Virus record (IMG/VR): IMGVR_UViG_3300018405_000030
Location: 1-45,578 of that record
Reading direction: 5' to 3' (one strand)
Length of the DNA: 45,578 nucleotides
DNA from: a virus
Part shown: positions 2,575-29,411 of the stretch, in pieces
Layout: each line of letters starts with the position of its first letter
Position numbering within the stretch: the first letter of the stretch is position 1
Program-made: the position numbers and the translations under genes
Notes under the pieces: generated by a model
Told to the model about the DNA's origin: nothing
The model's input: the letters and a program-made list of their open reading frames with translations, nothing else
Databases searched by the model: none

Positions 2575-3846
2575 ATGGCAGAAGTAGTATTACCAATCCC
2601 GAACAATGGTGGGACATTATCAAACCCGAGAACACGAAAAATGTTTAGACTGTCTGGTGACAAGTTTGTCATCCTCTATCACCAAACAGCTCCGAACCTG
2701 ATCATCTGCCAGGTTGTTCAGATCAATAACATCAAGAGCGCAACACCATCTGTTACAACTCTGCGCACAGAAGTGCTCCAAGGACTTGCGCCGAGGTCAA
2801 ACAACTGGTCGTTCCTTCAAACTTACGGTGTTTCTATCAACGCAACAGATTTTCTAGTAGTGCTGCGAAGCGATGGTGGTGCTGTTGCAAGAGTGTTTAC
2901 TATTGATCCTGTAACCAACGTGGTTACAGCAAAATCAGCCAACACACTTGACTGGGGGATGCACTCACAGTCTAACATTGAAACTTACATTGGAAAGAAC
3001 CTGGATGTGAAGAAAGTGTTTGACAACGTAGTGATGCTGAGTGGTCCTCTGACAGCTTGGTCAGATGCTGGTCAAACAGAAACATACACAATTGTGTATA
3101 ACACAGGTACTAACCAGATTACACGAACAACAGCCAGCCTAGTAAACATGGGCAACGATGCTTACAGAGGTCGAGCGATTCACACTATTACTGACAGTAG
3201 ACCGTCTGTTACGCCATCGAACAGTAGATATGTATCCATTGTTTATCAGTTAGGGGCTTCGGGGCAGAACAGCATACTACTCAACACCACTCAACAACAC
3301 GCTGGGTTCAAGGTCGTCAAGGCAGTGTTTGGTTCACCGACAACAGCTCCAACATACACAACTTCGTGGATACACACTGGAATTTCAGCTTCCGCACCGT
3401 ATTTGTCTACATCTGAAACAACGGGTATTGTGTTTGTCGGTTTGGACCGGTACAGAACATTCAATGGCACATCTTGGTCTACAACAGACATCAAAGCTGC
3501 TACACCAACCCCATCGCCTACTAATATGTCTGCTGTATGGGCAACTTGGCTAGGCCCTGATTACATTCTCGTTGAGGGTGCGACAGCAGAGAGTACGACA
3601 ATTCCAACTACTCTCGGACGACAGTTCCGTGTATATCGGTACTTTGATGACAACACAATTGTCCCAACAGCAGCAACCGGTAGCACCAACCTGACACTGT
3701 TCAACGGAACTTCAAGAGCATTCCAGACAACAATGTCGCCAGATCGTGAAATCTACGACCAAGAAACAATACTGATGTACGGCTACGACGCACTATCACC
3801 AACAGGAAATATGGTGATGTATGTTCTCAACGCGCCATCAGTCTAA
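2575..3846 (+). CDS. Virion or tail-fibre-associated protein, unknown
   Basis: A 423-residue protein with a strong ribosome binding site (AAGGAG, 9 bases before ATG 2575). The sequence is a regular series of short beta-strands rich in Thr, Ser, Asn and Val, with no signal peptide and no membrane segment. Several blocks have the form strand, turn, F-x-V-x-Y/W, as in beta-propeller or beta-sandwich receptor-binding proteins. I do not recognise the family. It shares a late transcript with the Calx-beta-like protein and is closed by a terminator at 3867, so it is likely a virion surface component. A receptor-binding role is inference. Confidence 0.6.
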   Translation: MAEVVLPIPNNGGTLSNPRTRKMFRLSGDKFVILYHQTAPNLIICQVVQINNIKSATPSVTTLRTEVLQGLAPRSNNWSFLQTYGVSINATDFLVVLRSDGGAVARVFTIDPVTNVVTAKSANTLDWGMHSQSNIETYIGKNLDVKKVFDNVVMLSGPLTAWSDAGQTETYTIVYNTGTNQITRTTASLVNMGNDAYRGRAIHTITDSRPSVTPSNSRYVSIVYQLGASGQNSILLNTTQQHAGFKVVKAVFGSPTTAPTYTTSWIHTGISASAPYLSTSETTGIVFVGLDRYRTFNGTSWSTTDIKAATPTPSPTNMSAVWATWLGPDYILVEGATAESTTIPTTLGRQFRVYRYFDDNTIVPTAATGSTNLTLFNGTSRAFQTTMSPDREIYDQETILMYGYDALSPTGNMVMYVLNAPSV

Positions 3847-3866
3847 CACACTGACCCTCACACATC

Positions 3867-3889
3867 AAACCCGCTTCGGCGGGTTTTTT
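3867..3889 (+). terminator. Rho-independent terminator
   Basis: Arms AAACCCGC and GCGGGTTT around a TTCG tetraloop, followed by T6. It separates the late structural pair from the early polymerase promoter, which starts at 3891. Confidence 0.92.
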
Positions 3890-3890
3890 G

Positions 3891-3919
3891 TTGACTGCTA
3901 ACTCCGAGTGGTGTATAAT
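3891..3919 (+). promoter_or_regulatory. Sigma70-type early promoter for DNA polymerase
   Basis: TTGACT (3891-3896), a 17-base spacer and a perfect TATAAT (3914-3919). The first base comes almost directly after the preceding terminator. It should drive the polymerase and downstream replication genes by host RNA polymerase. Confidence 0.85.
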
Positions 3920-3948
3920 CGAAAAAGGTGAATTCACAGGCACATTCT

Positions 3949-5004
3949 ATGGAACAACGAAAATACATTTCCGCTTTTGCTGATCGTCGCAGGGATGCGG
4001 TGATTGTGTGGGAGCGGGATGAAGACGGTACGCGCGTTGAGCAGATCTACGATGCTCCGTACTACTTCTATTACGACGACCCTAAAGGGAAGTACACAAC
4101 AATCTATGATACGAAGGTCAGCAAGTTTGAGAGCAAGACTGGCCGCGAGCATTATGGCAAGCGTAAACAGTTCCAAGAGGAAGGTGTTCGGTTGTGGGAG
4201 AGTGACATCGGCCCTGAGATCCGTGTGTTGTCAAACCATTACTACGGCGTCCCTGCTCCAAAGCTGAACGTCACATTCCTTGATATTGAGGTTGATTACG
4301 ACCCAGATGTCGGGTTCAGCTCAACACGCAATCCGTATGCACCGATCAACGCCATCGCTCTGTATCATACACACCAGAATAGAATGGTCGTCATTGCCGT
4401 CCCACCAAAGAACGACGGGATCGACTGGACACCTCAGCTGCTTGCTGCTGCGTGTAATGACATCCTTGAAGTACCAAAAACATTCAAGACTGACTACATC
4501 CTCTGTGCTACCGAAAAGGATCTGTTGATTCGCATCATTCACGAGATTCAAGACAGTGATTTGCTGTGCGGTTGGAACAGTGAGACCTTCGACTTCCCGT
4601 ACATCGCAAAGCGGTTTGAAAAGGTTCTTGGTGACAAGTCGTTACGTCATCTGTCGTTCCCTGGTGCTGAGATTGCTCGGTTTGAGGAGATTGAGACACA
4701 GTACGGTCCACAAATCAAGTTGATCACATCCGGCCGTATGCTTGCTGACTATATGGCTCTGTACAAGAAGTATGAGCCAGGTGAGCGAGCATCGTACAAG
4801 CTGGCTGCAATCGAACAAGAAGTTGGGCTGAACTTGCCCAAACTCGAGTATGAAGGGAACCTTGCAGATCTGTACACCGGCGCTTGGAAGCCAGACCCCG
4901 ATAAGGTACCCGACCCCAACGATAAGCTCGCAGTAGCTGCTGTTAGACGGGAAAAGTTGAGACGAGAAATAGAAAAGCGTGGATTGAAAGTTCCATCACG
5001 CTGA
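3949..5004 (+). CDS. 43A: DNA polymerase, N-terminal fragment (split gp43)
   Basis: The first 351 residues of a T4-type family B polymerase. It carries the N-terminal domain and most of the 3'-5' exonuclease domain: Exo I is D112-I-E114 in TFLDIEVD, and Exo II is N210..D215 in GWNSETFDFPYI. The frame stops after LKVPSR, before Exo III, which lies on the second fragment. Start ATG 3949 follows an ACAGG ribosome binding site; GTG 3928 is an in-frame alternative. The last nine bases overlap the 3' end of the antisense HNH gene. Together with 43B it would rebuild a full polymerase. Split gp43 is known in some T4-related phages, but the two parts must associate for proofreading here. Confidence 0.92.
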   Translation: MEQRKYISAFADRRRDAVIVWERDEDGTRVEQIYDAPYYFYYDDPKGKYTTIYDTKVSKFESKTGREHYGKRKQFQEEGVRLWESDIGPEIRVLSNHYYGVPAPKLNVTFLDIEVDYDPDVGFSSTRNPYAPINAIALYHTHQNRMVVIAVPPKNDGIDWTPQLLAAACNDILEVPKTFKTDYILCATEKDLLIRIIHEIQDSDLLCGWNSETFDFPYIAKRFEKVLGDKSLRHLSFPGAEIARFEEIETQYGPQIKLITSGRMLADYMALYKKYEPGERASYKLAAIEQEVGLNLPKLEYEGNLADLYTGAWKPDPDKVPDPNDKLAVAAVRREKLRREIEKRGLKVPSR

Positions 5005-5949
5005 TTTATTACCCCAGGTCCATTTCTTCTTGGGTGAGAGCCCACCTCTCACCCAACCGCTTGGTATGGGGTCCTTTTCGGGATGGTATTTTTGGGTGGT
5101 ACCGTCGTTTATCCTGATTTTACCAGCGTTCCTGGATTTATTTTGCGTAAGTGCTCTATTGGATCGCCCCGGATGCCACCCATCTGGTACTATCTCACCT
5201 GGGTTGAGATATACATCTGTTGTGCCGTTTGTTATCCAGGTTCTACCCATTTGTGTTTTTTGACACGAACCAATAACGTATCCATCTGGTATGTTAACAG
5301 GGTCAACGTAAATATTCTTTATACCATTAGTAACACATACTTTTGATGTTGGCGCTTGACCCAACACCCACCCATCCAATAAGTATTTGTTTTTGAGGTC
5401 AGGGTCGATGTTTTTGGTGACGCCGTCTTTGTTTACACATATGTGTTTTTTGCGGGTAAACGTATGGCGACCAACACTCCAACCGTCTGCTATGTATTGT
5501 GATAGTTCTGTTTCTGATATACGTCTTGACTTAGCTCCATTGTTGACCCATAGTGTATCTTTGCCGGTAGAGAACACACCACTATCAACCAACCGCTGCC
5601 GTATATCCGCAAATCGTCTGGACGCGTATATGTTGGAAGGAGTTGTGCTGTTACGTATTAGTCCAACACACATAGCCACTATTGCGTTCCACATTTTAGC
5701 CCGATGGCTTTTGCGTCTGACCATTTTCGGCAACAGTAAATGAACGATATAATGCTCACGAAATGTTAATCGCACTATGTTATCGGGATCGCTGTATCCA
5801 CCGAGGCCGAATGACTGTGGCAGTATGTGATGTGATTGCCCATTAACGGCTTGACTTCTCATAATAGCTTGCTGTATAATATTACAATACCATTTTGTAT
5901 ATTTGTTTGGGTGAGAAAGTTCTTGTATTTGTTTGATATACTGGTTCAT
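4996..5949 (-). CDS. HNH homing endonuclease splitting the DNA polymerase gene
   Basis: A 317-residue protein. Residues about 35-75 form an HNH nuclease core: SHHILPQSFGLGG, then DNIVRLTFREHYIVHLLL. The rest holds about five copies of a unit of the form W/I-x-N-N-G..., followed by about 15 residues, then GW-x-x-G, probably modular DNA-contact elements. The start is ATG 5949 with an AGGAG site 8 bases away. A CATAAATA late promoter lies on the same strand at 5983-5990. It runs antisense to the polymerase and fills nearly the whole gap between the two gp43 fragments, so it is a free-standing homing endonuclease rather than an intein. No terminator separates its end from antisense 43A. Nuclease family is confident, target site is inferred. 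Confidence 0.88.
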   Translation of the reverse strand: MNQYIKQIQELSHPNKYTKWYCNIIQQAIMRSQAVNGQSHHILPQSFGLGGYSDPDNIVRLTFREHYIVHLLLPKMVRRKSHRAKMWNAIVAMCVGLIRNSTTPSNIYASRRFADIRQRLVDSGVFSTGKDTLWVNNGAKSRRISETELSQYIADGWSVGRHTFTRKKHICVNKDGVTKNIDPDLKNKYLLDGWVLGQAPTSKVCVTNGIKNIYVDPVNIPDGYVIGSCQKTQMGRTWITNGTTDVYLNPGEIVPDGWHPGRSNRALTQNKSRNAGKIRINDGTTQKYHPEKDPIPSGWVRGGLSPKKKWTWGNKSA

Positions 5950-5982
5950 AGTACTTCTCCTAAATCTCTCTGTGTGTGATAT

Positions 5983-5990
5983 TATTTATG
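5983..5990 (-). promoter_or_regulatory. Late promoter CATAAATA for the HNH endonuclease
   Basis: Read on the minus strand, the octamer lies 33 bases before ATG 5949. Its last three plus-strand bases are the ATG (5988-5990) of polymerase fragment 43B. Confidence 0.75.
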
Positions 5991-7823
5991 ACTAACGACG
6001 ACATTGCCAACCTATCCGATGAAGAGCTTTTGGAAGAGTTCTACATAGCTGATACCGAAACCCGCATATACTCGTTTGCCAAGTTCACGAGATACAACAT
6101 TCGTGACTGCGAGATCCTCAACGGTTTCGAGCAGAAGCTCGGCTATGTTGAACTCGCAAACCAGATGTACCACATGTCGTGCGGCCTATTTGAGCATGTG
6201 CTTGGCACATTGAAGCTTGCTGAGCTTGCTATCGTCAACTACTGCCACCACGAGCTGAAGCGCGTCGTTAAGAATGTGACCGAGCCCGAGATTGACCGAG
6301 CGATTGAAGGCGCTCTGGTGTTGCTGCCACAGAAGGGAATGCATGAATGGATCGGGTCGATTGACATCAACTCGCTGTATCCGTCCGCAATCCGCTCAAT
6401 CAACATCTCACCTGAAACGCTACGCGGTCAATTTACCAATGATGTTCAAGACGCTGAAGCGATTGCTGCTGGCGATACAATCAAGCAGCTGACGCTTCGT
6501 CTGGAAGACGGTGAAGAACACACGATGACAGGCGCTGAGTTCCGTTCCTGGTTGTCTGAGCGCAAATGGGTTGTTTCTGGTTATGGAACCGTGTTTGACC
6601 AGTCTAAACAAGGAATCATCCCTTCTATTCTCGCTGATTGGTATGCTCAACGGAAGAAGTATCAAGCGATGAAGAAAGAGGCTGGTGGTAATGGTGATAA
6701 GGACATGGAAGGGTACTACGATCGCCTCCAGTATGTGTTCAAGATCAAACTGAACTCACTGTACGGTGCTCTGACAAACCAATACTTCCGTTTCTATGAC
6801 CTGCGGATGGGCGAAAGCACCACGGGTACAAGCCGTATGGTTCTTCGCCACCAGTGCCGCAAGGTTGGCGAGATTCTTGACGGGAATTACAACTTTGACA
6901 TCCCAACGTACGAGACGGTCAAGGACGCAGAGGAAGCTGGCCATCCGGCATCGGTTGCGTTGTACGGACCAAAGTTCAATGGGTCATTTCAGTCGCCTAG
7001 CGTCGTATATGGTGACACAGACTCGTGCTACTTTGCTACTGGAGCAACGAACAAGGAAGACGCGATTGCGATCGCAGATAATGTTGCCGAAATCGTCAAC
7101 AAGTCATACCCAAAATTTATGCGAGAGACATTCCTGTGTACACAAGGGTTTGACGACATCATCAAGTGCGGTCGAGAAATTGTTAGCGACCGCGGGATCT
7201 TCGTTGGTAAGAAGCTGTACATCCTTCACCTATGCGATGTTGAAGGCAAGTCCGTTGACAAGATGAAGGTGATGGGTCTGTCGATCAAGAAGACGACGAT
7301 CCCTCGTGCTGTTTCAGACCGCATTGAACAATTTATTGAGCGGCTGTTGAAGGGTGAAGACTGGAATGAGGTCTGTCAAGCAATCGTTGACTACAAGGAT
7401 GAACTCCGAGGTGCTGCCAACATTCTCGACATTGGTTTGCCAAAAGGCGTGAACGGTGTCGAAGATTACACGAAAGAGTATGAACGAAACGGTGATGACG
7501 CGCGGCTGCCTGGTCATATTGCTGCTGCGATTCACTACAACGAAATGCTCGCTCACTACAACGATAAAACAAGTATGGCGATCACATCAGGGATGAAAAT
7601 CAAGGTGTTCTACCTCAAGCAGACACGCGGTAAGTTCAAGAGCATTGCTCTACCGACCGACATTGAGGTTGTCCCTGAATGGTTCATCAACGACTTTGCG
7701 GTTGACTATGATGCTCACATTCAACGACTTATCGACAAGCCGCTGGATAACATTTTGAAAGCGATTGATAAACCTGTTCCGACAAAGCAGTCAATGCTCG
7801 TTGATAGCCTTCTTGTTTTCTAA
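5988..7823 (+). CDS. 43B: DNA polymerase, C-terminal fragment (split gp43)
   Basis: The remaining 611 residues of the family B polymerase. It opens with a short acidic helix and then Exo III, Y36-N-I-R-D40, so one catalytic Asp of proofreading comes from this chain. Palm motif A is DINSLYPS at about 126, motif B is K254-LNS-LYG260, and motif C is G-D343-T-D345. A KKLY thumb motif follows. The C-terminus is shorter than T4 gp43. ATG 5988 is the natural start, with GTG 5976 possible, but neither has a visible ribosome binding site. No promoter was seen immediately upstream, so transcription must come through the endonuclease region. It overlaps the next gene by one base (TAATG). Confidence 0.93.
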   Translation: MTNDDIANLSDEELLEEFYIADTETRIYSFAKFTRYNIRDCEILNGFEQKLGYVELANQMYHMSCGLFEHVLGTLKLAELAIVNYCHHELKRVVKNVTEPEIDRAIEGALVLLPQKGMHEWIGSIDINSLYPSAIRSINISPETLRGQFTNDVQDAEAIAAGDTIKQLTLRLEDGEEHTMTGAEFRSWLSERKWVVSGYGTVFDQSKQGIIPSILADWYAQRKKYQAMKKEAGGNGDKDMEGYYDRLQYVFKIKLNSLYGALTNQYFRFYDLRMGESTTGTSRMVLRHQCRKVGEILDGNYNFDIPTYETVKDAEEAGHPASVALYGPKFNGSFQSPSVVYGDTDSCYFATGATNKEDAIAIADNVAEIVNKSYPKFMRETFLCTQGFDDIIKCGREIVSDRGIFVGKKLYILHLCDVEGKSVDKMKVMGLSIKKTTIPRAVSDRIEQFIERLLKGEDWNEVCQAIVDYKDELRGAANILDIGLPKGVNGVEDYTKEYERNGDDARLPGHIAAAIHYNEMLAHYNDKTSMAITSGMKIKVFYLKQTRGKFKSIALPTDIEVVPEWFINDFAVDYDAHIQRLIDKPLDNILKAIDKPVPTKQSMLVDSLLVF

Positions 7824-8218
7824 TGAAACGGTTCTACACCAGCAACTACTCGAAGAAGGGTCGTGACCCTCTTGCCGTGTCGATCAGCGCGAAAGCGCCT
7901 CACTACTTCCACGGTAGGTGGTATCTGTATCTCGCTCCTTCGTGGGAAATCATCAACGGGATCAAGTATGGTGGTTGGACAGAGGCAGACTACACGAAAG
8001 CGTACCTTAAGCTGATCATCAACGAGCGGAACTTGACCCCTCAACGAGTTGCTGATGATTTACAAGACGGGTCAATACTGCTCTGTTATGAGCGCGCGGA
8101 CGATTTCTGCCACAGACATATTGTTGCAGAATGGATCCAAAGCGGTACTGGAATCACCGTGGTTGAGTGGCAGCCTGAGCAGCCTCCGACGATCGTTGAC
8201 GAACTGCTAAAATTCTAG
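7823..8218 (+). CDS. DUF488 family protein
   Basis: A 131-residue protein that starts within the polymerase stop codon (TAATG), so it is translationally coupled to 43B. The C-terminal half contains LCYERADDFCHRHIVAEWI, the Cys/His-rich signature of the DUF488 family. An N-terminal block with SWEIINGIKYGG and a YTKAY segment also fits. The biochemical role of DUF488 proteins is not settled. Its place between polymerase and clamp in an early operon suggests a DNA-metabolism link, but this is inference. The promoter of the clamp gene lies within its last codons. Confidence 0.75.
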   Translation: MKRFYTSNYSKKGRDPLAVSISAKAPHYFHGRWYLYLAPSWEIINGIKYGGWTEADYTKAYLKLIINERNLTPQRVADDLQDGSILLCYERADDFCHRHIVAEWIQSGTGITVVEWQPEQPPTIVDELLKF

Positions 8219-19613: not shown

Positions 19614-22600
19614 TTAGTCGTCGAACATCCCTTGAACATCAAGTATACGGATTCCGTGGAGTGCCAGCCATGATGTTTTCATCAGACCGCTATATTTACT
19701 CTTGGTTGCCAGCGCGTCAGAGAGGATATCAAACCAAATTGCGTTGGTGTGAAGAGAGTCAAATGTGTTGAATATGTAGTCACACATATCCTTCACACGC
19801 TGTGGATCAGTCCAGAACGAATCTTCCGTCGCAGGATACGTTTCAAAGAACGCGTTAATGTCAACAGGCTTAAAATCGTTCATCGGATCTTGTAGATAGT
19901 GAACAAGCGTTTGGCGCGCGTACTCAGGGTTGGCGAAAATCTGGTCGTTGCCAAGACCATATTTTGTCTCCGTCCCGTTCAGTGCGTCGTAGTGCTCGCG
20001 TTCAAACGACGGTACCCTGACTGTGAAGTCGTTATACTTACATCCCATCAACGCTTCTGCCATTTTAATCCACAAGTCTTGCGGAATAGCACCAACTTGC
20101 TCACGGCGGAACATATACCACTTTGCGTGTTTGTTTTTGCCGTATAGTTCGTTGTGTTCTGCTCTGATATCAGAACGCAGAGTTAGATCACGTGTGAATT
20201 CAACAACGTATCTGTCATCTTCGCCGATGTACGGAGCGATCTTGTTGAGGACTGCTTTGCGATAGAAAATCGATGGCAGGTATTGAGTGTTGTTCGAATA
20301 TGCAGTGTACTGATGTTGGTCGTATCCTGCTCTATCCCACGGCGGGACGTCAAATCCACGGACCCAGTCGTGATCTTGAGGATCCTGAACAACGGTGTAA
20401 GGTGTTGGCATTGTTGCAATTTCTGTTGCCACCTGTGCAGCAGATAATGACGCGTTGTCGTGAATATCTCGTTCAACAGTAATCCCCTCAACCCAGTAAT
20501 AGTAGTACACATACGTGATACCATCAACCGTTTTACGGACCGTTGAAAACTCTGTCATATCCATCCACTGAACATCCAGAGTGCCATCATCTTCAACTTC
20601 TGGGTTGAACACACGTTCTGCATTTGTTATTCTGTGGATAGGACGAACAACATCAATGATGTCTTTCTTCGTCATGTTGTATTCACTGCCTGCTGTATCA
20701 ACAGCATTGTTCATCACAACTTTGCCAGCAGTTAACAGTTCACCGTTAACATAGACGTCGACAACATCACCGTCAACTATATCTGTACCTAACAGTGTTA
20801 GAATTGGTTCACGGATAGTTGGTGTGGTGAATACCGCTTGAGTTGCTCCATACAGTCGCTCACGTGCAACAGGCTGACGAACCCAGTTTTCTTCAAACGG
20901 TTTTGTTACCGTAACCGTTGCTGCAAAGAACAAGTCAACCGTCACACCATCTTCATCAACGATCTTAAACGTTTGGTCTGCTGGTTGATAGTCATCAACA
21001 ACATACCGTTGGCCAGCCAACACTGTTGCTGGTAGTGGTGTTGCTCCATCTGTGAAAATCACAACATCGCCGTCTTGGTATGTGTTGTTGCCTGTTGTTG
21101 AAATCCGTCCTGTTAGTTGACTGATCGTTGCAACATCGTGCTTACGCATTCTCTTAAACACAGTGATTTTCGGTGTCCCAGTAACGCGATTTTGTTTAGC
21201 AATCTTGAGGTCACCAGCTTGTGTGCGAGCAACCTGAACCCAACGATCAGGAGCTATTGTTGTTTCAACCCACTGATAGACACGAACAGAACTCCAGTCT
21301 TGTTGCTTGCCCCACCGATGCAGACGATGATCGACATCAGGATAGATCACGTCATCGTAGTACGGCTTGTATCCAAGTTCTGATGTGTCAAGCCACATTG
21401 TGCCAACTTCAGGCGACAGCCACGGATTGCTTGACGACAACCCGTTTGTGATTGTGTTCAGATAGCGAGCAGGATCACTGTCTGTTATTAAATCAATGTT
21501 GTGGACAGCCGTGGGCGAGTGAATGCCAATTGCAGGGTGCCACAACGGAATATCCTGAATGTGGACACGCGACTTAACGTCTTTAATCCGCGGTGCAGAG
21601 ATTTTGTTTGCACTTGGGTTGACGGTGAAAATCGTGATTAGGTCTGTAAACCCTACCTGACGTGCAAATCCAGGACCGGTTGGTGTAATTGTTTCCGATA
21701 AACGAACACGAAGTGTCAGAGGGTCAACAGAAACAATCGTGTGGATTTTGTTTGTTGTTGACAACATCACCTTGTCGCCGGGGACAAACTTAACTGAGTC
21801 TTCCTCGGAAACAACAATAGAATTTGACGGAGCATCAACAGCTGTAAATGCAATGTCTGCTGTAGGGAAAGCAATCACTTCCGAGTTGACACGGTAGTAT
21901 CCGTTTGCGGCATCCACTTCGTTCATAAGTGTTGACGTATACGTCAACAAGTTGCCTTGTTGTTGCAACTTACGAGCAACAACACGAACGCCATCTGCGG
22001 CAGTTGGGAGAACAAAGTAAACTGTGTTGTCAACTTCACGGATTGAGAATGCTGGCGCTGTTAATTCGGACCAGCTGTTGTTTGCACGCGTATAATAGTG
22101 CGGTTGGCCATCATGAATGTTGACCCATACATCAAATTCATTGAACCCGTTTTGTGGCGGTCGTGAAGTGTATACAGGCGATGACAAGGATCCTGTTGAG
22201 CGGGAGATGAACAGCTTAGTCATCGTCGTAATTCCAGCATCAAGGAATAACGCGGATTGGACCACTTCACGTTGTTCTGGATAGTCTACCCACCGTTTTC
22301 CTGTGGTCATCGTCACCGTCTCAAAACCCTTCTGAATGTCAACGATTGGGTTGAGATCCAAATCGGGTGGTGAGGTAAACTTCAGACGTACGTCTGCCTT
22401 CGTGCTGTCTGATGTGAACAACTTCAATTGCGGATATACTTTTGCACGGCTATCGCCAAACTCACCAATCTTGTATGCCCAGAACTCATCCATTTTTGCA
22501 TCAACAAATTTCTTAGAGTTGACGTATGCCATCACAGAGTTCATAGACCCTTTGTATTGGATCATACCGCGATAGAACAGGAACTGTGACTTTGCGTTGA

Positions 22601-25600
22601 CGTTCAGCAAATCAAGGTACGACATACTGCCATCATTCGGGTTATAGCCGAGAGTATGACGAGCGTGGGCGGCAGCGGGGGTCCCTTCTGTTAGGTCGTA
22701 AGCATCGTAGTAGCGACGTAGGTCCTGAATACTTCCTTCAATGTTGCGGACAAATCCGTTGCCGCTCAGATAGTATCCACCAAGCGATGGACGCAGGGTG
22801 TTGTTTCGCTGCTTGTCAAAGTCCAAATCAAATCGCTGAATAAACAGACCGAGGAATGGATCATAAACGAGGTCATCGCCGACTGTATAGTTGTTGAACA
22901 TCAGGATGTGTTCGTGCCCTTCAACAAACAGGTGTGCGCCACCAATGTGGATGTAGTTGTATGGGTCAGACAGGCCGAAGTGCTGTTCAACATCGTTCGG
23001 AATTTCAGGACGGACAGAGATTCTGCTAATCGTGTCGTGACGGTAGACAACAATCTTATCCGCTGTTAGATTGCGACCATACTGATCGTACAGCGTCTGT
23101 GACACGCGAATGTCGACATACGGTCCAGATATCACATTTGACAACATACCTTGTGGTGTTGAGACCCACAGGTTGCTCCTCATCGGATTCATGTTAAACG
23201 TTGGGAATTGCTGATCAATCTTCTGCACAGAGGCGTTATGAATCCCGCCACCTGCTGTTGTGATTTCAACAATGCTCAACGGATCGTCTACGCGCGGGTT
23301 TACTGCGAGGCGGAATAGTTGAGCATCGCCTTCAACAGGCGCAAAGTAGTACGGCACATTAGCAAACAGAGGTTCTGGTAGCGAATTACTCGTAGACAGA
23401 GTGATTGCTTTGCCTTTTTCCCATGCGGGAACAGATGATGTAAATCTAAATGTGCCATCTGTTACGTTGCTGACGACAAACTGGAACCTGTCGTTGATCT
23501 CAACTCGAGAACGTCGAAGGCTGTACGCCCAATCTATCATTCGTTCAATTTCAACTTGCCAGCTAACTGGACGGCCCGTGTCACTATCGTATTCAATAAA
23601 ATCAGTTGTGTCGTTGTATACCAACCCGCTATCAACTTGGTGTTGAACGTATCCATCAACAAAATTGATTAGATTTTGCATTCCAACGATTGTTGTCGGC
23701 AGTGATATTGTTCTGATATCGTCTGTGTTCAACTCAAGGTGGAACCATACATCATCGACAGACGATCCTTCGAACACGTTAAATGTAGATTTTAGCTTAC
23801 CAACCACCAAGTCTCCTTGCGGGATGCTGGTAATATCTAATCCTATTCCTTGCGACGCGTTGAGTTCTGTTAGTGCTAGTTTGAATTTTCTATCATCGAT
23901 GCGAATTACATAGTATGGCGTGTTTGCAACGAGAGGATACGGCAACGCTTTGTTTGATGTTGGAACAACAATGTCGCCAGTCTGCCAGTTGTGAGCAAAC
24001 GGTGTAATGTCAATCCTACCATCACGAATGGATGTTGGCACGTTTTCAACACAACGGACGCGTGTTGTTTGACGGACAGTGTCGAAAGATGATGTAATGA
24101 CGGTGTACACACCATCGTTTGTTGTGCTGCCTGTAACAGTAAACTGAACGTCTTGTAAGAAAAACGCTGTTTGATCACCACGAACTTCAAACGTATCGAT
24201 TGCTGCTGTAACGTCATCAATATCAAACGCGAATGATGTAAATTCGTCTGTGTCTTTATCAACCATCACAGGCCATTGCTGAACGCCATACACTTTAACA
24301 GAACGTAGCGATGGTGCATGGGTGCCTACAGCAAACTTCCACTGAGCTTGGTTGTTGAACTGAACAATTGCAGGTGGCATGGACAGCAACCCGATTGTAA
24401 ACGCATCTGCCCACAGCTGTTTGATGACACCACTTTTCGCAAGAATTACTTCATAGTCACGGTTGGTGACGTCAAAATTTCTGTTGAACACTTGCAGCGT
24501 TGTTGTGTCAACAATCCCTGCCGTCTGGTATGATTGGCGTGGCGTCCACTGTGTCCACTGTGTTCTAAAGTTAACGTTTGTGTCAAACCCATTGTAACGG
24601 TTGAAGTTAACATACCATTGATTTAGGCCGTTCGCTTTGTATAACTTATTGTCGTCGTAAATGTCACCGTGGAAGATTGCTTCCTTGTGCGACAACACTT
24701 TTTTAAACGTGGCATCAACTTGAAGACCGCCAATCTCAACGTACTTGTTTCCGTATGCTTTGTAAAAGAATTCAACAGGCTTGATTAAGAACGCAACCAC
24801 AGATTGATCATACACGCGTTCGGCTGATACTTCCCACTGCCATTCAGTAGGGCCTTGTTGGCCAAACATATAGTCAGCATCGGGTGCGATGATTTGCGTA
24901 GAAAATACGCGGAACACTGACCGAACCGTGGGATTCAGTAGCATAATCTGCGTGTTGTCGTAGTATGGTGGCAGCAAACCGTCTGGCTGATAGCCGCCAG
25001 GTGCGGGCTCATCCATAATGTTGACGGAGAAGTAATTGTACTGCGGGAGTGTCTGTTCGTCAACGGTTGGGTTGCCTGTGCTTACAGTTCCGTCTGGATA
25101 ATATCTACCAGCAGGGACAATGCCACGACGAATGTTTTCCCACATGCCGATTTTTGCAGCATGGTCATATTTCCAACGGCGAGTTCCATCCGTCTCCGCG
25201 TATTGTTCATCCCACCACTGTGGCTTGTGGTCATATCCTTGCAAACACCATGGTTCGAGGTGTGGGTGGGGTGTGCCGTACCAGTACTGATGCACTGCCT
25301 GCCAGCAGCCACGCGGTGCTGGCGTTAATCCAGCGCGTGGTGGTAAATCAACCACGCTTTGAGCATAGTTCCACGTAAACGGATCTGTCAACGAATATGT
25401 TGTGTTGACCAACGGTGCTACGATGTTCTTCTTCGCAACATAATCCATGAACCTTGTCAACATTCTGCTGCTATACACCTGCGCCATTTCTTCTGTTGCT
25501 GTCAGTGCAGAGAAATCAAATGGAGGGACAGGGAACACAGGGGTTGCGTCGTGCAGCCTACGTTCAACCGCCAGGAATACTGTTGCTAACATGTCTGCAA

Positions 25601-28600
25601 AGTTTACACGGTCCCATTCAGAACCGTTTCGCTTATATAAACCAGCGCCTGCTCCTGGTTTATACCAGTAAATCGGAGATGTTGTTGGTGCAGATGTGCT
25701 GATTACCGCAAGACCAGGCTGCGCAGCGTTATATTGTCTCACGAGAATCCTTGCATATCTATCTTGCTCAGCTGGTGTGATAGCAAAGTAAGTTCTGTGA
25801 CCGTCATGGTGAATCATCGTAACAGAGTTTCCGTCAACAACGTAGTAAGGTTGTTGTTTGGCGGCAAGACCGAACATCGGTGCTGTTGCTATCCAGTTTG
25901 GCATTCCAGTACCAGTTGATGGATTGTAGGCTGTCGTGTCACTAAACACACGGGCAACGAAGTCGTTGTTGGCGAACTCCGTAATACATCTGTCAGCAAT
26001 GCGATTCGTAATATCGTCAACGGTATAACCTGACCACTCAATCAACGCATCAACAACAGTATTTGTGAACACATCACGGACACTGACCATATTTGCAGCA
26101 TACTGCTTCTGTGCAAACTCAATAACACCAACAGGAGTAACATCATCCAGGTTCACAGCCGAAATCAATGCATCGAAACTGTCGTTGTGTTCCTTAATTG
26201 TTCCACCAACACCATAGTCATATTCTTTTTGCGTCTTCGTGAAAATTCCACGATTGATCAAACCCGGAATCCGCTCTTGTTGAGTAACAATAGACGACAA
26301 GTGTGTGATCAGCTGCGACAGCAAAATCGTCTTATGGTTTTCGTGCTCTGGGTTGTTCCTCCATTGACTGATTACTTCCCAATCACCTTCAGTGGAACCT
26401 TTTTCAATCTCTTGTCCGCTTCCATCAACGTATTTTGGCACGTATTTTTCCCGCGATGAGGACGTTTTCCAAAGCGTTTCCAGAGTTGGGTCAGCATCGG
26501 CAACAACTACATCGCCGAGCGTATTCCAAATTCCGTTAATAGCGTCACGTTGAACAAACCTGAGCGTTTCAGGATTGACCCACACACTCATATGATCGTT
26601 CAGTAGTTCTGTTGGTTCCGTTGTTGACACAACTGGCGTCTTCGCGATCCATCCTGTTGCAATCGTTGCGAGGATCGTTGTCGTCCACGCAGCCCCATCC
26701 CAACGCTTGAGTTGCTGTGTCAGCGGGCTGTACCAGTACTCAGGTTCAGCATCCGTCAACGTTCTGTATGCAAACAGCTTTCCATTCTTCTGATCAACCA
26801 AAAACTGCTCGAACATGAACTCGCGGCCGTCATCTGTTGTGTAGATCCGACGTTGCGTTGACGGATCGACTGGCATTGAGGTGTCTTCCGCAAACGCAAA
26901 TACAGGACTGGTGTTGACGACCTCACCGGTGATGATGTCATATATGTTGAACAGAGGATACTGGTTGATCTTGTTCTTGACTTGTTCGTTTTTGTGATAC
27001 TTTGCTAACGTACGAAACTGTGGCTGTTCCTTAGCAAGAACACTAACCTCAAACTGATAGTCGTCCTCAATTGTGCGAACTGGTACGGAGTACAAACCCA
27101 TGTCGGCATATGACGGCGGCGCGAATTCAATTCTAACAACATCGTTTGCGCGAAGAGGTTTATCAAACTGTATGCTGTCAACAAAACGGAATTCTGTTGG
27201 AGCAAGGCTGGATGTCAGCCCAACATTGTCAACGATCGTGTAGTCAGGAGAGGCAGCAAAGAACCCAGATATTTCTCTGTAAGTGCCGTATTGTCTGATC
27301 CCGTTAACGTATACACGCATGTGATTTTGGTTAACAACAGCGTAATATCCAGGCTGTTCACTGTTGTATTTGTATCTGTCATGCATGTCAACTTTAGCGA
27401 TTCCGTCAACCGCTGGCATGAACTCCTGGTATGTATCAAACAAGTACAGAGTTCCTTGAGCTAGTGTGATCGTCTCACCGCCTGTTAGATTATCCACCTT
27501 GGCATACGGATTTTTCATCTGTGGTGCTACAGCACGACGTTCAGTGTTTATTTCATCCAACACCCAGTGAACGTGATATCCTCTCCAGTTGTCACCACGA
27601 GATGTTTTGATTGGTTCAAGACGTGTATATGGTGGCGTTGGTTCTGCTGGCGTAGCTTCGTAATGAACACCAGCAACCATAGGAGCTGTGAAGTCTGTTT
27701 CTTGTAGGCGGATTACTGTAACGAATCTACCACGTGGCAGATCTGCTGGGTCACCATCACCAACTTGACGAAACCAAGAACTTTCTACGGTATACAGTTC
27801 TGCGTAACCATTTTTATCAACAATTCTAAACTTGTAGTCTTTGATGAACGTGTTGGTAAAATCAATGTCACGGTTGGCGGATGAACGCTCAGTTGCCAAA
27901 AACAAATACCACACACCATCAACGTTGTGAGCAACATATGATTTGATTGGTTCAAGTTCAAACCGATGAGGCTGGTTTTCTGTTGAATTGAACGCGAAGT
28001 TTGGTTCACTGCGGTACTTCCACTTGTAAATCACTTCCGTCCACTCGTTAACTTCCGTTTGTGACGAATATTCCAGAATTGGCACTTGTGCGCGCTTGGC
28101 ACCAACAAACGTCGTCAGCTCTGATTTGTGAACCCACTTGTTTTGCAGCGACCATTGTGTGTGGCGCTGAGGCGTACAGCCAGCAGACGCATCCCAACGA
28201 ATTTGTCCAGTTGTTTCAGCGAGAACTTCCGAAAAATTGTCCTTCACATTCAGCCATTGAGTGTTATCCTCACTGCGCTGCTTTAGTTGATCTGCAGTGG
28301 TGTCATGCCACAAGTCAAATGATGATGGTTGTGTGTTAGCATCCAACCACTCTGCTTCAGTACCAAAACTAATAGCAGCAAGCAGATCCGTATTCCACAC
28401 TAACGCAGATTGCTGACCGTCGTCCCACTGCTTGGCATCCCAACCGCCAGTATCACTCTGGCAGGCGCAGTTCGCTTCTGCTTGATAGATTGCTTCTTGG
28501 TCTGATAACGAGATGTATGAAACGATCATCTGAGAAGAGATCACCCAAGCTGTACCGTTCCATGTGTACAACCGACTGAGTGGTGTTGCAGGATTGGTGC

Positions 28601-29411
28601 TGTAACGATACCACCATTGGCCTTCGTATTCAGCTGATGGAGGAGTGTACGGAGCATTGATGTCGTCTGTCGGTGTGATTATTGACAATTGTGGTGTTAC
28701 AACAATTGTTGTCTGATCGTCTTCAGCGTTATAAGAAGAAGACACAGCGTACCAAGTCTTGTCAGCTAGGTTAATATTGTTTGTTCCTTTTGTAATGAAC
28801 ACAAAGTCTTCAACAAAAATATCATCATGCTTGCCGCCAATCATCATAGCGTTTAGCGCAAAGTCAAATTTGACAATATCAAGCGTGGAGCCGCGGCGGG
28901 CTAGGATTGCTTTATACGCGTCTAGTTTGCTTTTTGCTTTGTTACAGCGGTTTTCAACTGTAAAATGTTGTGCTGGTGACTGGCCATCTTCTGGTCTCCA
29001 GAAGTAGTCAGCATAATTGATCAACATATCGAGGTTCACAGGCGGTATCCAATTGAACCGATCCGTTGCTGCCCATCGATCCATGTTTACAACATCAACA
29101 CCCATAAGCCCTAGCTGTTGCTGGAATCCTTTGAAGGTTAGGACAGAATCTGTTGTCCCATTCTTTGTGTACATCACAGGCGCAAGCTGATGTGCCTGGC
29201 GATGAGGTGTGGGTTCTGGAAGCTGACGATCTACGAGAGCTGTTAGGTTACCTTTGCCAACATAACCAGCAACGTGCACTGTGTCATCTTTTGTCAAAAA
29301 CTTATTGAACGTAGCGTCAAACAACGACTTGCTGACGTCAGAGCGATAGACCTCAGGCAGCAGGTCCATAATGTTCGTTCTGTTTTTGTCGTGATCTGAT
29401 TTAGATGCCAC
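19614..29411 (-). CDS. Giant virion protein, baseplate region (3265 aa)
   Basis: One uninterrupted frame of 3265 residues, starting at GTG 29411 after GAGGG. The N-terminus (DLLPEVYRSDVSKSLFDATFNKFLTKDDTVHVAGYVG) is a block I associate with giant tail proteins of some T4-superfamily phages. Two kinds of short beta modules recur: W-V/Y-x-P-x-T..L-x-R-x-x-G..W (for example VWVNPETLRFVQRD), at least six times; and GD-x-V....LP-x-PL-A-x-x-x-YYV....F-x-LA, at least three times. The 946-residue protein shares both. No enzyme motif was found. Position after gp6 is that of T4 gp7, and length is three times gp7. It may form a large wedge arm or side fibre. Confidence 0.75.
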   Translation of the reverse strand: MASKSDHDKNRTNIMDLLPEVYRSDVSKSLFDATFNKFLTKDDTVHVAGYVGKGNLTALVDRQLPEPTPHRQAHQLAPVMYTKNGTTDSVLTFKGFQQQLGLMGVDVVNMDRWAATDRFNWIPPVNLDMLINYADYFWRPEDGQSPAQHFTVENRCNKAKSKLDAYKAILARRGSTLDIVKFDFALNAMMIGGKHDDIFVEDFVFITKGTNNINLADKTWYAVSSSYNAEDDQTTIVVTPQLSIITPTDDINAPYTPPSAEYEGQWWYRYSTNPATPLSRLYTWNGTAWVISSQMIVSYISLSDQEAIYQAEANCACQSDTGGWDAKQWDDGQQSALVWNTDLLAAISFGTEAEWLDANTQPSSFDLWHDTTADQLKQRSEDNTQWLNVKDNFSEVLAETTGQIRWDASAGCTPQRHTQWSLQNKWVHKSELTTFVGAKRAQVPILEYSSQTEVNEWTEVIYKWKYRSEPNFAFNSTENQPHRFELEPIKSYVAHNVDGVWYLFLATERSSANRDIDFTNTFIKDYKFRIVDKNGYAELYTVESSWFRQVGDGDPADLPRGRFVTVIRLQETDFTAPMVAGVHYEATPAEPTPPYTRLEPIKTSRGDNWRGYHVHWVLDEINTERRAVAPQMKNPYAKVDNLTGGETITLAQGTLYLFDTYQEFMPAVDGIAKVDMHDRYKYNSEQPGYYAVVNQNHMRVYVNGIRQYGTYREISGFFAASPDYTIVDNVGLTSSLAPTEFRFVDSIQFDKPLRANDVVRIEFAPPSYADMGLYSVPVRTIEDDYQFEVSVLAKEQPQFRTLAKYHKNEQVKNKINQYPLFNIYDIITGEVVNTSPVFAFAEDTSMPVDPSTQRRIYTTDDGREFMFEQFLVDQKNGKLFAYRTLTDAEPEYWYSPLTQQLKRWDGAAWTTTILATIATGWIAKTPVVSTTEPTELLNDHMSVWVNPETLRFVQRDAINGIWNTLGDVVVADADPTLETLWKTSSSREKYVPKYVDGSGQEIEKGSTEGDWEVISQWRNNPEHENHKTILLSQLITHLSSIVTQQERIPGLINRGIFTKTQKEYDYGVGGTIKEHNDSFDALISAVNLDDVTPVGVIEFAQKQYAANMVSVRDVFTNTVVDALIEWSGYTVDDITNRIADRCITEFANNDFVARVFSDTTAYNPSTGTGMPNWIATAPMFGLAAKQQPYYVVDGNSVTMIHHDGHRTYFAITPAEQDRYARILVRQYNAAQPGLAVISTSAPTTSPIYWYKPGAGAGLYKRNGSEWDRVNFADMLATVFLAVERRLHDATPVFPVPPFDFSALTATEEMAQVYSSRMLTRFMDYVAKKNIVAPLVNTTYSLTDPFTWNYAQSVVDLPPRAGLTPAPRGCWQAVHQYWYGTPHPHLEPWCLQGYDHKPQWWDEQYAETDGTRRWKYDHAAKIGMWENIRRGIVPAGRYYPDGTVSTGNPTVDEQTLPQYNYFSVNIMDEPAPGGYQPDGLLPPYYDNTQIMLLNPTVRSVFRVFSTQIIAPDADYMFGQQGPTEWQWEVSAERVYDQSVVAFLIKPVEFFYKAYGNKYVEIGGLQVDATFKKVLSHKEAIFHGDIYDDNKLYKANGLNQWYVNFNRYNGFDTNVNFRTQWTQWTPRQSYQTAGIVDTTTLQVFNRNFDVTNRDYEVILAKSGVIKQLWADAFTIGLLSMPPAIVQFNNQAQWKFAVGTHAPSLRSVKVYGVQQWPVMVDKDTDEFTSFAFDIDDVTAAIDTFEVRGDQTAFFLQDVQFTVTGSTTNDGVYTVITSSFDTVRQTTRVRCVENVPTSIRDGRIDITPFAHNWQTGDIVVPTSNKALPYPLVANTPYYVIRIDDRKFKLALTELNASQGIGLDITSIPQGDLVVGKLKSTFNVFEGSSVDDVWFHLELNTDDIRTISLPTTIVGMQNLINFVDGYVQHQVDSGLVYNDTTDFIEYDSDTGRPVSWQVEIERMIDWAYSLRRSRVEINDRFQFVVSNVTDGTFRFTSSVPAWEKGKAITLSTSNSLPEPLFANVPYYFAPVEGDAQLFRLAVNPRVDDPLSIVEITTAGGGIHNASVQKIDQQFPTFNMNPMRSNLWVSTPQGMLSNVISGPYVDIRVSQTLYDQYGRNLTADKIVVYRHDTISRISVRPEIPNDVEQHFGLSDPYNYIHIGGAHLFVEGHEHILMFNNYTVGDDLVYDPFLGLFIQRFDLDFDKQRNNTLRPSLGGYYLSGNGFVRNIEGSIQDLRRYYDAYDLTEGTPAAAHARHTLGYNPNDGSMSYLDLLNVNAKSQFLFYRGMIQYKGSMNSVMAYVNSKKFVDAKMDEFWAYKIGEFGDSRAKVYPQLKLFTSDSTKADVRLKFTSPPDLDLNPIVDIQKGFETVTMTTGKRWVDYPEQREVVQSALFLDAGITTMTKLFISRSTGSLSSPVYTSRPPQNGFNEFDVWVNIHDGQPHYYTRANNSWSELTAPAFSIREVDNTVYFVLPTAADGVRVVARKLQQQGNLLTYTSTLMNEVDAANGYYRVNSEVIAFPTADIAFTAVDAPSNSIVVSEEDSVKFVPGDKVMLSTTNKIHTIVSVDPLTLRVRLSETITPTGPGFARQVGFTDLITIFTVNPSANKISAPRIKDVKSRVHIQDIPLWHPAIGIHSPTAVHNIDLITDSDPARYLNTITNGLSSSNPWLSPEVGTMWLDTSELGYKPYYDDVIYPDVDHRLHRWGKQQDWSSVRVYQWVETTIAPDRWVQVARTQAGDLKIAKQNRVTGTPKITVFKRMRKHDVATISQLTGRISTTGNNTYQDGDVVIFTDGATPLPATVLAGQRYVVDDYQPADQTFKIVDEDGVTVDLFFAATVTVTKPFEENWVRQPVARERLYGATQAVFTTPTIREPILTLLGTDIVDGDVVDVYVNGELLTAGKVVMNNAVDTAGSEYNMTKKDIIDVVRPIHRITNAERVFNPEVEDDGTLDVQWMDMTEFSTVRKTVDGITYVYYYYWVEGITVERDIHDNASLSAAQVATEIATMPTPYTVVQDPQDHDWVRGFDVPPWDRAGYDQHQYTAYSNNTQYLPSIFYRKAVLNKIAPYIGEDDRYVVEFTRDLTLRSDIRAEHNELYGKNKHAKWYMFRREQVGAIPQDLWIKMAEALMGCKYNDFTVRVPSFEREHYDALNGTETKYGLGNDQIFANPEYARQTLVHYLQDPMNDFKPVDINAFFETYPATEDSFWTDPQRVKDMCDYIFNTFDSLHTNAIWFDILSDALATKSKYSGLMKTSWLALHGIRILDVQGMFDD

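Follow-up and report, generated by a model that had tools for sequence, protein, structure and literature searches.

A family B DNA polymerase gene split between Exo II and Exo III, with oppositely charged tails that may dock the two chains

The virus record IMGVR_UViG_3300018405_000030, analysed here as a window of 45,578 nucleotides (nt; 45.6 kb, with all coordinates given as window positions), encodes a family B DNA polymerase (PolB) of the T4/RB69 gp43 type in two cistrons, 43A and 43B. The break lies within the proofreading domain, between the motifs Exo II and Exo III. Judged from sequence, it is quite likely that one replicative PolB is made as two chains, 43A and 43B, each translated separately, and that charged tails at the break re-pair and thereby restore proofreading. 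The elements concerned are the following:

3949 to 5004, plus strand: 43A, the N-terminal and exonuclease part of PolB, an open frame of 351 amino acids whose conserved core ends at nt 4875
4876 to 5001, plus strand: tail A, the 42-residue C-terminal extension of 43A, net charge +5, with a predicted helix at residues 326-343
4996 to 5949, minus strand: HNH homing-endonuclease-like gene, matching the homing endonuclease family phrog_655 (9e-25), with MobE-like relatives
5988 to 6074, plus strand: tail B, the 29-residue N-terminal extension of 43B (LSDEELLEEF...), net charge -8
5988 to 7823, plus strand: 43B, Exo III with palm, fingers and thumb of PolB, an open frame of 611 amino acids with an ATG start

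The PHROG 262 (DNA polymerase) profile is matched at positions 9-307 by 43A (8e-51) and at positions 299-844 by 43B (2e-115), and as a single profile is thus covered first by one and then by the other cistron, the two represent one polymerase cut in two. In the numbering of RB69 gp43, the alignment of 43A reaches residue 312 and that of 43B starts at residue 316, and the break lies just upstream of the Exo III segment. Foldseek searches with the predicted structures of both halves led to the same protein (E 4e-21 for 43A and 2e-24 for 43B). Together, the halves contain Exo I-III, SLYPS, KxxxNSxYG and DTDS in the context of full-length homology, with no stop or frameshift in either of them. The core of 43A ends with LADLY at nt 4875, and that of 43B resumes with FAKFTRYN at nt 6075. 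An earlier sequence-only reading had proposed a split inside the proofreading domain, and the computed motif positions bear out its residues exactly: Exo I (D112, E114) and Exo II (N210, D215) belong to 43A, Exo III (Y36, D40) and the polymerase core to 43B, and all of these exonuclease residues are invariant in alignments with relatives, as are the catalytic motifs of the polymerase, which are likewise intact. The exonuclease carboxylates are indeed, as had been claimed, divided over two chains, and with the metal-binding residues distributed in this way, proofreading becomes conditional on assembly. A continuous frame through both halves, which the same reading had named as a finding that would speak against it, is excluded within the present assembly.

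The comparison with uninterrupted homologs that had been suggested for placing the break was carried out. In the closest relative, locus L001, the polymerase gene is intact and 81% identical in both halves, and three residues (KND) stand at the site where the window has about 1.2 kb. Among 94 loci in which the stretch from Exo III to the polymerase could be read, including the window and its own locus L012, a split at the Exo II/III site occurs only in the window and a long loop at this site only in locus L095. Relative to three outgroups, the core of 43A has acquired 2 changes in the window lineage and 8 in L001, and the core of 43B 14 and 13, respectively; there is thus no excess of change in the window halves over the unsplit L001 polymerase, as would be expected for a working enzyme. 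In a scan for a co-conversion tract, divergence between L001 and the window was slightly higher near the insert. The motif FAKF beside the insert was considered as a donor signature and dismissed, as it is also present in the unsplit polymerase of L126.

These data bear on the possibility that the split is a recent disabling insertion, by which proofreading or the whole polymerase has been lost, with another enzyme being used or the phage being defective. The assembly of 43A and 43B is inferred, and as the window is a 45.6-kb fragment, a second polymerase may be encoded elsewhere in the genome. However, both halves keep all motifs, without acceleration, stop or frameshift, and two isolated phages share the split, one of them without a recognisable endonuclease in the gap, and we therefore consider a disabling insertion improbable.

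The tails are missing from nearly all relatives, including L001. Both look like genuine coding sequences: their in-frame codon use is within the range of the window genes and exceeds that of 96% (tail A) and 98% (tail B) of stop-free wrong frames. Their net charges are among the extreme 3% and 0.5%, respectively, of segments from the window's own proteins. Random read-through as the origin of the tails was ruled out by this codon use and by homology. The polymerase of L095 is unsplit and carries, exactly at the break site, a 72-residue in-frame loop that matches both tails in order, with NDKLAVAAVRREKLRREIEK of the window aligned to NQKLAAEIKREIIKREIKK of L095 in tail A and NLSDEELLEEF aligned to NNSNEELLKEY in tail B. 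Among 27,486 long-open-frame segments from other loci, the score of the joined tails was reached by the L095 loop only. Within this loop, the basic and acidic elements are connected by a short turn.

Two further polymerases are broken between Exo II and Exo III, and they carry related tails with the same charge pattern. In Pseudoalteromonas phage vB_Psh_XG4 (L115), a 43A of 348 amino acids ends with ...KKELEKRGITVPQ, and a 43B of 602 amino acids begins with MDELSTMSDDELL..., its ATG being preceded by AGGAAG, which resembles a Shine-Dalgarno (SD) sequence. In Variovorax phage V45v66, a 43A of 339 amino acids ends with ...DKLKARGINAKDLKS, and 43B begins with MNIQEIENSDFDAMSDDELIRMY.... Exonuclease and polymerase motifs are retained in both. 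It is the content of the gap that differs from the window: XG4 has an antisense gene with a GIY-YIG-like start (5100-5873 of L115), whose PHROG matches are function-unknown families and an HNH endonuclease family, whereas the 334 nt between the V45v66 halves hold a short open reading frame of no recognised family, and a PHROG search found no recognisable endonuclease there. The net charges of tails A and B are +5/-8 in the window, +3/-5 in XG4 and +4/-5 in V45v66, and those of the two halves of the L095 loop are +5/-4. Tail A is homologous to the L095 loop and the XG4 tail and weakly to the V45v66 tail, and tail B is similar to the corresponding parts of all three. In shuffles, the joint tail scores were reached in 0 of 20,000 cases for window and XG4, 61 of 20,000 for window and V45v66, and 0 of 20,000 for XG4 and V45v66. 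Among the matches listed in searches of IMG/VR, phage records and plasmids, no further tail-bearing polymerase was found beyond L095/L109, XG4 and V45v66; two degenerate tail scans matched at least 599 stretches each. An apparent homology to XacN1 that started inside tail B (at query residue 12) came from an alignment that had run too far, as XacN1 has only three residues there.

In the polymerase tree, the unsplit L001 is the sister of the window and the unsplit ACP17 that of V45v66, both pairs being strongly supported, and XG4 and L095 are placed elsewhere, so that unsplit relatives stand between the three splits. The polymerases of L001 and ACP17 have no loop at the site. Independent gains of related tails at one site would fit better with site-specific lateral transfer than with repeated exact loss. 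As the cores of XG4 and V45v66 are 24-31% identical to the window and the tail identities (26-37%) are close to this, donors would have to be old or unsampled. The same matches bear on a possible assembly artefact, which has to be considered for a metagenomic contig: an assembly error is not expected to create tails with counterparts at this very position in an independent unsplit loop and in two split genes that were sequenced independently, which makes this explanation hardly credible.

Could the two halves be joined after all at the level of RNA? The insert might be an intron of group I (or II) that hosts the endonuclease gene in antisense orientation and whose splicing restores one chain. 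An intron of this kind is present in L079, a polymerase of the same family (L079:2924-5005): the polymerase is interrupted before motif B, with RF00028 at 4784-5005 and an antisense gene for a 538-residue endonuclease at 3003-4619. Moreover, a U|...G junction can be read in the window that would give ...LADLY-TGA-FAKFTRYN..., with exactly the length of relatives, and a missing SD-like sequence before 43B would also suit an intron. Nevertheless, a permissive Rfam intron search of the insert and both flanks gave no match at E up to 10, while the group I intron of L079, as positive control, was detected with the same library at 85.8 bits (RF00028). Splicing had been named by the sequence-only reading as what could overturn it, and this search gives no sign of it. 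The flanks of the insert do not exceed shuffled sequences in structure (z +1.3 and +0.7), the tails are coding-like and homologous to the L095 protein, and only about 77 nt (4978-4995 and 5950-6008) belong neither to the endonuclease gene nor to the stretches homologous to the loop, as compared with about 220 nt for the L079 core and about 220-250 nt for the RF00028 core in general, which is not present in the window. XG4 and V45v66 gave no intron match either. As there is no intron match and the non-coding DNA would not suffice for an intron core, splicing is unlikely.

A covalent connection could in principle also be made by a split intein, as in the split polB of jumbo phage MIJ3. Fractured polB genes that combine a split intein with an endonuclease gene are known (PMC6892783), and relatives of the window polymerase carry intact in-frame inteins. 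In MIJ3, the PolB gene is likewise broken by an HNH endonuclease gene, but its trans-splicing intein has the blocks A, B, F and G and another break position (PMC6892783), and none of these blocks is found in the window. The window tails (T1...R42 and M1...S29) have only 71 residues in total, fewer than the more than 100 of inteins and the 15+168 of a characterised split intein (PMC10189870); there is no Cys or Ser nucleophile at position 1, no HN with the terminal Asn before the C-terminal junction, and no Pfam intein match. As, in addition, the homologous 72-residue loop stays in one chain in L095, a split intein is highly unlikely. We therefore take 43A and 43B as separate chains, because features of introns and inteins are missing and a promoter-like site faces 43B.

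This site lies in the insert, which is nearly filled by the antisense HNH gene. The 3' end of this gene overlaps the 3' end of 43A by 9 nt in a tail-to-tail arrangement, and its start is preceded by an SD-like AGGAG. The encoded protein has no Pfam family match, and it is 43% identical to phiM12 mobE over residues 1-118. It has the sequence characteristics of a Mob/MobE-like HNH homing endonuclease, with putative cleavage and homing functions. An HNH gene is also found in L001 (5261-6010), directly 5' of the unsplit polymerase with a 4-nt overlap, and its HNH part is 37% identical to that of the window. Three candidate expression signals accompany the cistrons:

3867 to 3886, plus strand: terminator-like hairpin ending the gene upstream of 43A, an 8-pair stem with T-rich tail that is a consensus match only
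3891 to 3919, plus strand: promoter-like TTGACT-17-TATAAT, 29 nt 5' of 43A, 11/12 consensus
5851 to 5880, plus strand: promoter-like TTGACT-18-TATAAT facing 43B, located within the endonuclease gene and antisense to it, 11/12 consensus

Five promoter-like sites of 11/12 quality, these two included, occur in the window on both strands, and about 0.05 would be expected in the gap. Transcription of 43B probably starts at a promoter of its own in the insert and also occurs by read-through. The genes 3' of 43B encode a processivity-factor-like protein and a 5'-3' exonuclease. A DUF488-like gene (7823-8218) overlaps the 43B stop, and a similar gene lies 3' of the polymerase in L028. Farther away, the minus strand holds a very long open frame of 3265 amino acids (19614-29411).

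How could the two chains work together? The charge pattern in all members and the short turn in L095 suggest a helical hairpin that is cut at the turn and re-formed between chains. The charged extension would be such a hairpin, and once it is split at the turn, its basic helix (on 43A) and its acidic helix (on 43B) would pair again, now between the chains. This pairing would place the 43B helix that carries Exo III against the portion of 43A with Exo I and II, and the paired chains would restore proofreading and form a polymerase capable of copying the phage genome. The antisense endonuclease gene would occupy the split site and be exchangeable or dispensable there. The halves thus probably find each other through their tails, and the homology of the tails to a loop in the unsplit L095 polymerase, together with their recurrence in two distant split polymerases, makes this assembly more likely. 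In agreement with it, the model of 43A alone has the helix in tail A, and in single-chain models 43A is poorly ordered at residues 276-314 and 43B at residues 1-72, which are the stretches adjoining the break.

Several points weigh against this assembly. The low confidence next to the break in the single-chain models may also reflect shallow alignments (12 and 18 sequences). The ATG of 43B in the window has no SD-like sequence, and the XG4 and V45v66 records are flagged UNVERIFIED in GenBank. The similarity between the tails of the window and V45v66 is weak, and as the LSDEEL at the start of tail B is a common helix-cap motif, part of the similarity may be due to convergence.

Split gp43 genes are known from T4-related phages, as the sequence-only reading had stated, namely from the Aeromonas phages 44RR and 25 (Petrov, Ratnayaka, Karam 2010, summarised in PMC2988022). 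According to this review, a seg-type endonuclease gene is associated with gene 43 in phage 25, and the split halves co-purify and have polymerase activity. Like the window, 44RR has two cistrons, 43A and 43B, for a T4-type PolB, but the 44RR break is in the fingers before motif B, with a 43A of 498 amino acids and a 43B that starts shortly before KILINSLYG. Its exonuclease domain therefore is on one chain, and no tails in common with the window were seen. Another similar case is Aeromonas phage Aeh1, in which an HNH endonuclease gene likewise lies inside an essential enzyme gene: its NrdA is split with mobE, and the two chains form a working enzyme (Friedrich et al. 2007, via PMC2988022). The enzyme is a different one, however, and PMC2988022 makes no mention of a recurrent split site, with tails in common, among distant phages. 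Our literature search, mostly without subscription papers, brought up no polymerase with a cut at the Exo II/III position and no description of shared tails.

The polymerase family of the window is rich in inserted elements. L043 has an in-frame intein-like insert (~3687-4690) within the Exo II motif GWN|SDMFDTPY, with a Cys start and VHN before S at its end, and similar in-frame inserts of intein-like type are found at YGDTDS or close to it in L029, L089, L101, L104, L106 and L016. In the Vibrio phages henriette 12B8, V6Aob and 2.058.O (L118, L119, L120), PolB is split in the fingers with a small function-unknown gene in between, and the 43B start of henriette, ...SMMTDDELIAYHQ, resembles tail B. 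The PolB of Vibrio phage VB_VaC_SRILMA (L121:2733-6688) is annotated as three pieces plus a homing endonuclease gene, and the linker between its Exo II and Exo III contains a short loop that starts with YTGNYIIP, as in the tail-bearing enzymes. In L076 (2348-4875), there is a frameshift in the fingers without an insert, possibly a sequencing error.

It is conceivable, though we put this forward only tentatively, that homing endonucleases install themselves together with DNA coding for two docking helices of opposite charge at a fixed exonuclease site of PolB, as a mobile split-and-dock cassette whose endonuclease is later replaced (HNH, GIY-YIG) or lost. If this were true, an essential enzyme would survive its cutting without RNA or protein splicing, and a stable two-chain proofreading polymerase would remain. 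As split gp43 genes were already known, what is new here is a cut that divides the metal-binding residues of the exonuclease over two chains, together with the shared tails, which could serve as natural docking tails for studies of split polymerases. The recurrence of this cut in three deep lineages, with related tails of opposite charge, points to a way other than introns and inteins by which a selfish gene may reside in an essential gene.

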